DNA of 64,000 nt, taken from assembly GCA_027309085.1 (NCBI GenBank), contig DAIDDL010000017.1, positions 1 to 64,000 of the forward strand, read 5' to 3'. The stretch's first letter is position 1; each line of letters opens with the position of its first letter. Below the pieces are notes generated by a model, which did not search any database, was not told the origin of the DNA, and saw only the letters and a list, made by a program, of their open reading frames with translations. Both the position numbers and the translations under genes were made by a program. Below are positions 3,845 to 10,363 of the stretch, in pieces. Source of the DNA: Sulfobacillus sp. Lineage in GTDB: Bacteria > Bacillota > Sulfobacillia > Sulfobacillales > Sulfobacillaceae.

Positions 3845-5153
3845 ATGTCCACCCACCTAGACGACATTGCCTATCGAGCACAGCAGCAGCCTGCCGCGCG
3901 GTTTACCGCGTTGGCGCATCATTTGACGGAAGAGTTTCTGGAGGAAACGTGGCAAACCCTCAACGCCCATGGGGCGCCGGGATTGTCGGGGGAAACTATG
4001 GAGGCGTATGCCCGCGTCCGAGGGTTTCGCATTGCCCAACTGGTCGAGCGGCTGAAGGCACACGCGTACCGCGTGCCGCCCATCCGCCGCGTGTATATTC
4101 CGAAACCGGGGCAACCCCAAAAACAGCGGCCCCTCGGCATCCCCGAAGTGGAGGACCGCCTCTTGCAGGCGGCCGTCAGTCGGTTGCTGACGCCAATTTA
4201 CGAAGCGGAGTTTCGGGACAGCTCCTACGGATTCCGTCCGGGGCGCAGTCCCCACGATGCCCTACGGGCCGTGGAGGAAATAGTCATGCGAAATCCCATC
4301 CGGGAGGTCTTTGAAGCGGACATTCGCGGTTTTTTCGACCATCTCCAACATGACTGGCTGGATGAAAATGCTGGCCCTGTGTGTCGGCGACCCGGGTATT
4401 CTGCAGCTGATACGGAAATGGCTCCGGGCTCCCATTGTGGAGCCAGACGGCCGACACGTGCGGCCCACAGAAGGCACTCCACAAGGCGGTTCGATTTCGC
4501 CACTGTTGGGAAACATCTATCTCCACTATGTGCTGGACTTGTGGTTTGAGAAGGTGGTGCAACCGGCCTGCGGCGGCAAAGCGTACCTTGTACGATTTGC
4601 CGATGATTTTCTCGTCTGCTTTGAGCAGCCGCAGGATGCGCAACGCTTTGCGGCGCAACTGCCCATGCGCATGCATCAATTTGGTCTGGAACTGGCGCCC
4701 GAGAAAACGCGGCGCCTGCCCTTCGGCCATCGCGCATGGATAGCGACCGAGGCGCGTCACGAGCCCCGGGTGACCTTCGACTTCCTCGGCATGACCCACT
4801 TCGGAGCCCGCACCCGGCAAGGCCGGTGGCAGCTCCAGCGGCGACCGACGAAGAAAAGCCGCCGGAAATTCCTCCAGAAAGTGAAACAGACGCTGAAAGC
4901 CCGCTGGCACGACGGCATTCTGGTGCACCAACGGTACCTGAAAGCAGCCCTCCAAGGCTTCTATCGGTACTTCGGGTACCCGGGCTGCCTGCCCGGACTC
5001 AACACGCTCCGCCAACAGGTGCTCTATGCTTGGTACCAAGTGCTCCGCCGTCGTAGTCAACGCAGCCCGCAAGGGATTGCATGGTACTCGGCACAAGGCT
5101 GGTTTATGGCGCCGACGCCCAAACTACGACCGCGCGACACCGCGGCAAGGTAA
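3845..5153 (+). pseudogene. Group II intron reverse transcriptase/maturase, single-base frameshift
   Basis: The start is ATG 3845 behind GAGAGGAG. The first 172 codons give the RT N-terminus, with IPKPGQPQKQRPLGIPEVEDR and SSYGFRPGRSPHDAL, up to ADIRGFFDHLQHDWL. At 4360-4361 one extra G shifts the frame; the next frame continues with MKMLALCV, then GTPQGGSISPLLGNIYLHY and the active-site box VRFADDFLV (FADD rather than YADD), and a maturase X-like domain to the stop at 5153. Without the extra base the protein would have about 435 residues, normal for intron RTs that lack an endonuclease domain. As written it should be inactive unless ribosomes shift or the base is an error. Confidence 0.8.
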
Positions 5154-8076: not shown

Positions 8077-8637
8077 GTGGTCGCAGACCAGCAGAAAATA
8101 TTGGCTTATATTGGCCGGGTAGCACATCAGAGTCCTGTGATTCAGATGGTGGTGGGCTACTTAATGGCCGATCCCGGGCGCCTGAGCTTTGTCCGCCAGT
8201 GGCCTGAAGGTCAGACCTTGGCGATGGCTATGTCTCTTCACCGGCGGCTGGAACTGGCTGGGCCTGTCTGGCAGGGCTATGTGCGCGGAGTCCCCGTGCC
8301 GGATCCGCTGACATGGATTCAGGCAGCAGCGCCTTTTCGGACATCGGGGGTTGCGGTGCGGCTTTCCACGGACGACGCATGGCTCATGGAGGCCGTGCAG
8401 CCAATGATCTTGCGGGAACAGGCGGCAGAGTCCCGGGCCCACCTTGCGGAACGCATGCGCTCTGTCCGCCAGGAACTGGACCGGGCTCTGGATTTGTACA
8501 ATGAAATGCGCCATATTATGGAAGTCGACCGCGAACGCCAGGCCCATCTCGAAAAGTTTCTGGCGATGGCCCAAACCCAGATGCAGGGGATGGGGCAGGA
8601 ACTCAAAATGCTGAAGGATAATCTTGATGAGAGCTAG
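8077..8637 (+). CDS. Coiled-coil protein at the encapsulin locus, unknown function
   Basis: The 186-residue protein starts at GTG 8077 with AAGGAGG 9 bases upstream. Residues 1-110 form a mixed domain that I do not recognise. Residues about 112-186 are one long charged helix (EQAAESRAHLAERMRSVRQE, later MAQTQMQGMGQELKMLKDNL), likely a coiled coil. No membrane segment or signal peptide is present. It is the first of three closely spaced genes; the ferritin-like cargo follows after about 50 bases and the shell after that. It lacks the GSL-type targeting tail seen on the cargo, so if it joins the compartment it does so another way. Confidence 0.7.
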   Translation: MVADQQKILAYIGRVAHQSPVIQMVVGYLMADPGRLSFVRQWPEGQTLAMAMSLHRRLELAGPVWQGYVRGVPVPDPLTWIQAAAPFRTSGVAVRLSTDDAWLMEAVQPMILREQAAESRAHLAERMRSVRQELDRALDLYNEMRHIMEVDRERQAHLEKFLAMAQTQMQGMGQELKMLKDNLDES

Positions 8638-8687
8638 CACCCGAGCGGTCTGGAAGGAGGAGAGTCATCATCGATAAGGAACAGCAG

Positions 8688-9503
8688 GTGGTGTTACTGA
8701 ATGCGGATATTCGCGGAGAACACGATGCCATTGTGCATTATCTGACACATTCGTGGACCGTGGCCGAGGTATACGGCTCGCGCATTGAGTCTATTGCCCG
8801 TGACGAGATGCGGCACTTGAAATGGCTGGCGCACACGGTAGTCTATCTGCAGGGCGTTCCGGATTTTTCACCCCGGGAAGCGGAGCCGGTGCTGTCGCTG
8901 AATGAGGCGCTCGACATCGATATCGCGGCGGAAAATCAGGCGATAGCGCAGTATGAGGATCACTTGGCGCGTCTCGGCGACCCCAAAGTCCAGGCACTGA
9001 TTTCGCGCATTCTGATAGATGAAAGAGACCATCGCCGCCAGTTTCAGGAAATGGCCGCCGAGGCCCCCGAGACTCTGCGGGCAGAGGGGGGAAAGGACAA
9101 GCCCACGGCCGCCGTGGCGCAAGACCTCCAGCAGATTCTCAGCTTTGAATACCGCCAAATTTTGGAATATCTGTTCCGGTATTTTGTGGGCGTGCATGGC
9201 CGGGCGATGGGCATGACGGATGAAGACCGGGCCGTCGATGAGATGAAACATATGGGCTGGGTGGCGGAGTCCATGGCTTTTGTGGGACAGTTTCCCCGGT
9301 GGCAGAAGGCACCGGGAGACAGGCTGTCGCCGGCCAGACGAGACGAACAGCAGGTGTATGCGCGTGTGCTGGCGTGGTCCGAACAGGAAGCGCCCGACGT
9401 GGCTCCCCTCCTGCGCCGCATTATCGCCCATGAGGAATACCAGGTCCGCACGATGCAGACCGAGCCGTGGACAGTGGGATCCTTAAAAGATCAAGAAGGG
9501 TAG
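8688..9503 (+). CDS. Dual ferritin-like protein, encapsulin cargo with targeting tail
   Basis: The protein (271 residues from GTG 8688) contains two ferritin-like four-helix units. The first has EHDAI, RDEMRHL, AENQAIAQYE and DERDHRRQF; the second has FEYRQILEY, DEMKHM and AHEEYQ. The repeated E-x-x-H and E/D metal ligands suggest di-iron centres for iron oxidation and storage. The C-terminus PWTVGSLKDQEG fits the encapsulin cargo-loading peptide (T/I-V/I-G-S-L-K/R), and the shell gene follows after 8 bases. The ribosome site AAGGAGGAG (8654-8662) lies 25 bases before GTG 8688 but 7 bases before an in-frame ATC at 8670, so translation may really start at that non-standard codon. Confidence 0.85.
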   Translation: MVLLNADIRGEHDAIVHYLTHSWTVAEVYGSRIESIARDEMRHLKWLAHTVVYLQGVPDFSPREAEPVLSLNEALDIDIAAENQAIAQYEDHLARLGDPKVQALISRILIDERDHRRQFQEMAAEAPETLRAEGGKDKPTAAVAQDLQQILSFEYRQILEYLFRYFVGVHGRAMGMTDEDRAVDEMKHMGWVAESMAFVGQFPRWQKAPGDRLSPARRDEQQVYARVLAWSEQEAPDVAPLLRRIIAHEEYQVRTMQTEPWTVGSLKDQEG

Positions 9504-9511
9504 GGTACATC

Positions 9512-10363
9512 ATGACAATCGACTACTTATCACGGGACCAAGCGCCGCTGAATGCCTCCGAATGGGCGGAACTGGATGAGGCCGTCCGCCGGGTTATCGC
9601 CAACCAAGTGACAGGCCGGCGGTTTCTGTCGCTATTTGGTCCAGTGGGCGCTGGGGTTCAGGTGATTCCAGTGGACCGCACCCCGGGCATTGACCAGGGT
9701 CAGGTGGACATGGTGGGGGAAGTCAACGACGCCGTCAGACTGTCCAGCAGAATCTACCAAAAAGTGCCTATGCTGCATATGGATTTCATGGTTTTCTGGC
9801 GGGATATTGAATCGTCAAGAACTCAAGGAGTGCCGCTGGACTGGTCAATGGCCGAAGCGGCGGCGGCGTTTGTCGCTCAGGCGGAGGACCGCCTCATTCT
9901 GGAGGGGGATGCGGACGACCAGGTGGATGGGCTGCTTACCGTTCCCGGACGCCAGATTCGGACGGCCGCGGCGCATGGGGAATCCGGGAGCGGTTTTCAT
10001 GATGTGGTCAAAGCCGTCGACGACTTAAGTGCAGCCGGATTTTACCCTCCCTATACGGTGGTGGTAGGTCCCAGTCTCTATGCGGCATGGCACCGCCTAT
10101 ACGGAAACAGCGGAGTGTTGGAGATTGAACAGATACGCCGCTTGGCGGACCAAGGGGTATACGTAACGCCGCTCATGCCGGCGCATTCGGTGCTGGTGCT
10201 GGCGGCCGGGGCGCAGAATATGGATTTGGCGGTGGGCGCTGATGCCCAGGTGGCCTACGTGGAGTCGACCTCGATGAACCACCGCCTCCGCGTCATGGAG
10301 ACCCTAACGCTGCGCATCAAGCGTCCGGGCGCCATCTGCCACATTGCTCCCGCCAAGTCCTGA
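9512..10363 (+). CDS. Encapsulin shell protein (family 1, linocin/CFP29-like)
   Basis: The 283-residue protein from ATG 9512 aligns with family 1 encapsulins, which have the HK97 phage capsid fold and self-assemble into icosahedral protein compartments. Landmarks are LNASEWAELDEAVRRV, the TGRRFLSLFGPVGAGVQVIP block, the LHMDFMVFWRDIE segment of the long helix region, and the C-terminal CHIAP tail. Together with the ferritin-like gene just upstream, which has a targeting tail, this should form an iron-storing or oxidative-stress nanocompartment. The gene is the last of the unit; a GC-rich hairpin lies about 117 bases downstream. Confidence 0.9.
   Translation: MTIDYLSRDQAPLNASEWAELDEAVRRVIANQVTGRRFLSLFGPVGAGVQVIPVDRTPGIDQGQVDMVGEVNDAVRLSSRIYQKVPMLHMDFMVFWRDIESSRTQGVPLDWSMAEAAAAFVAQAEDRLILEGDADDQVDGLLTVPGRQIRTAAAHGESGSGFHDVVKAVDDLSAAGFYPPYTVVVGPSLYAAWHRLYGNSGVLEIEQIRRLADQGVYVTPLMPAHSVLVLAAGAQNMDLAVGADAQVAYVESTSMNHRLRVMETLTLRIKRPGAICHIAPAKS

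Follow-up and report, generated by a model that had tools for sequence, protein, structure and literature searches.

The 64,000-nucleotide stretch of Sulfobacillus sp. DNA analysed in this study (the window) very probably carries a family 1 encapsulin operon of the known 'Bfr cargo' type (Bfr-like FLP, formerly Flp+Flp). The operon comprises a gene for a tandem bacterioferritin-like cargo (8670..9503, + strand) and, after a gap of 8 nt, the gene for a family 1 encapsulin shell protein (9512..10363, + strand). The initial annotation had placed a shell gene directly after a cargo with two ferritin-like units and a TVGSLK tail, and this assignment as an encapsulin operon was confirmed by HMM matches, AlphaFold2 models and the tail sequence. 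It had also proposed a new architecture, which was rejected, because Bfr/Flp+Flp cargos are described in the literature and a solved protein (PDB 9viw) matches the cargo end to end. The locus is a new and clear member of a cargo type that is known but has been little studied.

Gene order and genomic context

In the host's bacterial family, the genes are arranged in the order transglutaminase-like gene (on the opposite strand), upstream gene, cargo, shell and NUDIX hydrolase. The operon had initially been drawn from position 8077 and thus included the separate upstream gene (8077-8637), which is kept in many encapsulin-free relatives. The best Pfam match of its product had an E-value of 0.011, and its family was not recognised. 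Of 101 relatives, 54 have a homologue, some alongside an encapsulin and some lacking one, whereas an encapsulin was found in 25 of the 101; in G002 and G008, the NUDIX gene comes after the upstream gene, with nothing recognisable as cargo or shell between them. The upstream gene was therefore ruled out as a specific encapsulin component and, being commoner than the shell among relatives, is better regarded as a resident neighbour than as a part of the compartment. The genome contains one encapsulin of this kind. Elsewhere in the window, an open reading frame at 4311-5153 (+ strand) encodes reverse-transcriptase-like motifs (GGSISPLLGN and VRFADDF, read by eye) and is probably part of a group II intron reverse transcriptase.

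Shell protein

The HK97-fold shell protein (283 aa, starting at ATG 9512) matched the family 1 encapsulin shell model NF041155 over its entire length (positions 1-261 of 261) with an E-value of 4.7e-76 and 255.6 bits, at a cut-off of 100 bits, and Pfam Linocin_M18 with an E-value of 1.1e-65. The nearest solved shells were M. xanthus EncA (1.2e-71) and then the IMEF-type shell 6nj8 (4.7e-59); the T. maritima shell followed far behind, at only about 1e-16. The T. maritima shell is a T=1 particle and M. xanthus EncA a T=3 particle. From this ranking, with EncA and 6nj8 nearest, we infer that a T=3 or T=4 particle would be more likely than T=1.

Fold of the cargo protein

The cargo has 277 aa if read from AUC 8670 and 271 aa if read from GTG 8688. 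The length of 271 residues given initially thus holds if GTG 8688 is the start codon and gives way to 277 if translation begins at AUC 8670; the start is uncertain and is discussed below. Pfam Ferritin (PF00210) matched the cargo with an E-value of 1.1e-13, over residues 9-129 only, and a second unit was not recognised by Pfam alone (E 0.15). The corresponding second half of a relative (L068) was recognised by Pfam at 3.7e-10.

An AlphaFold2 model of the whole cargo, generated from an alignment of 37 relatives, had a mean pLDDT of 84.1 and a pTM of 0.81 and showed eight long helices in two bundles, as expected from the initial annotation, which had proposed two ferritin-like units and a structure prediction of the cargo alone. 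Bundle 1 (residues 3-131; 8676..9062, + strand) is formed by helices 3-29, 33-59, 77-101 and 105-131, and bundle 2 (residues 147-261; 9108..9452, + strand) by helices 147-173, 184-204, 223-240 and 245-261. Since Foldseek searches with the whole model covered mainly the first half, the second half was predicted and searched separately; on its own it again gave four helices (mean pLDDT 78.0). The structural matches of the first half included mini-bacterioferritin 9qq5 (Z 20.4) and E. coli bacterioferritin (Z 19.6), and the best matches of the second half belonged to the ferritin superfamily (bacterioferritin, Dps and mini-bacterioferritin; Z about 13). Because the L068 half matches Pfam and the separate model yields a ferritin-superfamily bundle, the cargo comprises two four-helix ferritin-like units, the second of which has diverged.

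Diiron site and putative haem site

Bundle 1 carries a complete diiron ferroxidase site (E17, E46, H49, E88, E118 and H121), all six ligands of which were identical in 40 of 40 aligned relatives. In bundle 2, E160, M192 and H194 were invariant in the 40 relatives, whereas E191 and the ligand of the fourth helix varied, the fourth-helix histidine being replaced, mostly by tyrosine. As the six ligands of the first half never vary and some of those of the second do, the protein likely has one working diiron site and one remnant; with the second site degenerate, the two ferritin units are not equal.

Two methionines, M47 and M192, were identical in 40/40 sequences. M47 aligns with Met50 of mini-bacterioferritin 9qq4, and M192 occupies the equivalent position in the second half (DEMRH of the first half aligned with DEMKH). 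Met50 of mini-bacterioferritin binds coproheme at the dimer interface, and the haem-binding methionine is strictly conserved in mini-bacterioferritins, mostly kept in bacterioferritins and absent from other ferritins (PMC13168243). Given that this methionine is invariant in both halves and that M47 aligns with a coproheme ligand, it is a good inference that a haem would be shared between the halves, as it is between two bacterioferritin chains. Bundle 2, in which the diiron site is partly lost while the haem-side methionine is kept, is probably a structural, haem-sharing half.

The first half is also matched by Pfam Rubrerythrin (5.8e-10), and a rubrerythrin and a further protein of the ferritin family PF00210 are encoded in the genome; the compartment is thus not its only ferritin-like protein, and iron storage need not depend on it. 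Both observations would fit a cargo that scavenges peroxide or oxygen in the manner of rubrerythrin-kind diiron proteins, in a compartment devoted to oxidative-stress defence with iron storage as a secondary role. This reading is unlikely, however: the Ferritin model scores better than the Rubrerythrin model, the solved structures closest to the cargo are bacterioferritins, and both its ligands and its haem-side methionine follow the bacterioferritin pattern.

Relation to known cargo proteins

'Bfr' cargos with two four-helix bundles and targeting peptides were described in Firmicutes and other phyla by Andreas & Giessen (2021), and models in a review of 2024 present them as fused Bfr dimers. 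In the review PMC11202242, the same kind of protein goes under the name 'Bfr-like FLP (previously named Flp + Flp)'; its two bundles are said to resemble a bacterioferritin homodimer, with one full ferroxidase site in bundle 1 and a variable site in bundle 2. The cargo of the window agrees with these proteins (PMC8346489; PMC11202242) in having two bundles in one chain, a C-terminal targeting peptide, a Firmicutes host, a gene directly upstream of a family 1 shell gene, a conserved diiron site in bundle 1 and a variable centre in bundle 2. It departs from them in the very short tail linker (6 residues) seen in the host's bacterial family, which is a modest difference. The suggestion that a tandem four-helix cargo would be a different architecture thus cannot stand, since cargos of this type have been known since 2021, a tandem structure has been solved and PMC11202242 describes the two-bundle class. 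The initial proposal was to fall if a characterised cargo family of this two-unit fold was already known, and this is largely the case; the class is known from genome surveys, although no functional study or characterisation of it was found in the papers searched.

The solved 306-residue 'Bacterioferritin' 9viw (9viw_A) aligned with the whole cargo including the tail (E 7.6e-58). Both bundles are homologous over their full length, and 9viw ends in a targeting-peptide-like tail (RFTIGGLRE); over the aligned range it is about 20 residues longer than the cargo. The match was made by sequence only, 9viw being absent among the structural matches listed (fold library entries up to 2026-04-08), and a literature search found no paper for 9viw or for an 'encapsulated bacterioferritin'. 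Mper-mBfr (PDB 9qq4, PMC13168243) shares the four-helix core of bundle 1 (Z about 20) and the haem-binding methionine but, unlike the cargo, has a single bundle, forms a 12-mer and lacks a targeting peptide. With respect to the mini-bacterioferritin signature His29/Gly34/Met52, the methionine is kept in the cargo and the histidine lies one place off in the pairwise alignment. Mini-bacterioferritins are without extensions, whereas the tandem arrangement and the tail of the cargo constitute extensions.

The cargo had been set apart initially from EncFtn proteins of about 100 residues and from the IMEF cargo of about 200, and this distinction was borne out by its tandem four-helix fold and its length of about 277 residues. 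The IMEF cargo of Q. thermotolerans (PMC6668986) is likewise a ferritin-like Firmicute cargo with a TVGSL tail; unlike the present protein it has one four-helix unit in about 200 residues and a 37-residue linker, and it is often accompanied by an encapsulated ferredoxin. An identity as IMEF was ruled out by the two bundles and the 6-residue linker, and no gene for an encapsulated ferredoxin was seen next to the operon. EncFtn, EncB and EncC resemble the cargo as ferroxidase-type cargos of a family 1 shell, an activity that is predicted here, and differ from it in their size (about 100 residues), their single two-helix unit and their assembly into decamers. Helices 3-4 of bundle 1 matched the EncB family weakly (E 1.2e-6; 28.5 bits vs a cut-off of 90), and TIGR04535 scored 16.3 against the cargo (cut-off 125); with both scores under the cut-offs, an identity as EncFtn was ruled out.

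Putative targeting tail and its co-occurrence with the shell

The cargo ends in EPWTVGSLKDQEG. Within this end lies the putative targeting peptide TVGSLK (residues 268-273; 9471..9488, + strand), the core of which, TVGSL, is identical to the characterised targeting peptides of M. xanthus and IMEF quoted in PMC7925596 and PMC6668986. Besides its sequence, its linker length and its occurrence together with the shell identify it as such. A search for the same cargo near encapsulins in related genomes, as proposed initially, covered genomes of the same family, order, class and phylum as well as named contigs of Thermosediminibacter and two Latescibacterota. A TVG-type tail was present in all 28 distinct cargo copies that adjoin an encapsulin gene (L013 among them, which has an upstream stop codon in frame) and in none of the 17 copies without an adjoining shell. 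Both kinds of cargo, tailed and tail-less, were found in G001, G005, G006, G012, G018, G027 and G031.

Related genomes are treated as separate in these counts, so that a tree rather than a table is the fair measure. On the maximum-likelihood tree, the tail-less state requires at least three changes, which are forced by well-supported branches and correspond to one clade of free paralogues, L067 and L017. L017 lies inside the tailed clade and is still located downstream of the ancestral neighbour gene; its tail and shell are gone, with no shell found in the approximately 650 bases to the contig end or by a search of the genome. The strict co-occurrence of tail and shell and the loss of both from L017 at the ancestral site are new here, as, it seems, is the AUC/AUU start discussed below.

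Free tail-less paralogues elsewhere in the same genus and family could suggest that cargo and shell are chance neighbours and that the cargo acts as a free ferritin. Such a coincidence is extremely improbable, given that the adjacency is kept in 28/28 shell-bearing loci from two phyla and that tail and shell come and go together.

The linker between the last helix and the tail comprises 6-7 residues in all relatives of the host's bacterial family (6 in this cargo) and 16-29 residues in more distant relatives; linkers of 10-20 residues are the rule for targeting peptides (PMC7925596). A linker of only about 6 residues restricts the ways in which a cargo assembled as a cage could contact the shell. 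It bears on the possibility that the tandem protein forms a 12-chain (24-bundle) Bfr-like, iron-storing cage of its own, with the encapsulin as an outer container. This 'cage in a cage' was proposed from models in PMC11202242, and a shell within a shell in PMC8346489; it would accord with the bacterioferritin matches of both halves and with the two invariant haem-side methionines. It remains a doubtful though reasonable alternative, since a tether of 6 residues could bridge only a small gap between the shell and a closed cage of 12 nm. The host's bacterial family offers a natural comparison in this respect, as tailed copies with shells occur in the same genomes as free tail-less paralogues, one copy has lost its tail and shell without leaving the ancestral site, and the operon has decayed in two genomes; with this matched set, the question of a cage within the shell becomes directly testable.

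The free tail-less tandem bacterioferritins (L018, L020-L022, L024-L026, L028 and L035-L041) form a clade from the same family and order, often occur in the same genome as an encapsulated copy and constitute a natural soluble control for the cargo. One of them, L022, has the C-terminus TLGSSSP. In L043 (G057), the gene order is reversed, with the shell preceding a fast-evolving cargo that ends in SVGSLKPK. Stages of operon loss were observed at one and the same site: the cargo is kept in L017/L044 (G029), a fused scar remains in L048 (G003), where cargo residues 38-64 are joined to the shell C-terminus, and broken pieces of both cargo and shell are left in L045 (G032).

Proposed mechanism

In the favoured reading as an encapsulin operon of the Bfr cargo type, the cargo would be a bacterioferritin dimer made as one chain and anchored inside the shell by its TVGSLK tail. 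Fe(II) would enter via the shell pores and be oxidised by the diiron site of the first half, after which it would be deposited inside the shell as a mineral store. A haem bound between the halves would pass electrons and may help in the release of iron.

Start codon of the cargo gene

In most relatives, an ATG or GTG is located 2-4 codons before a conserved DR(R/Q)EQV stretch. In five of the six operon-bearing genomes of the same genus, ATC or ATT stands just before this stretch instead (ATC in the window, L004, L005 and L007; ATT in L006), and no ATG, GTG or TTG was found at the homologous start position in the window or in L004-L007. In L006, moreover, the stretch from the in-frame stop to codon 20, which extends beyond the first iron ligand, is free of ATG, GTG and TTG. 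The window contains a strong Shine-Dalgarno sequence (AAGGAGG, 8654-8660) 9 nt before the proposed start ATC (8670-8672; whole element 8654..8672, + strand). In L004-L007, the stop codon of the upstream gene ends exactly 2 nt before the ATC or ATT, a layout suited to termination and reinitiation.

Judged from this conservation, the cargo seems to start at the conserved AUC/AUU in the same-genus genomes, and the arrangement suggests a non-AUG start that is translationally coupled; in the window, where the region concerned spans 8664-8690, GTG 8688 is the alternative. In S. aureus, non-canonical initiation at AUU and AUA has been documented and, in poor medium, yielded roughly one tenth of the level obtained with AUG (PMC13009471). 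A more elaborate and quite improbable reading would combine these features: a haem-carrying fused Bfr dimer, held by its 6-residue tether so near the shell wall that electrons would pass along a single route made up of haem, diiron site and shell, with reinitiation at the conserved AUC/AUU after the upstream gene setting the dose of cargo relative to shell. Each of its pieces is compatible with the data. Should the non-AUG start be real, automatic annotation probably trims the N-terminus of such cargos.
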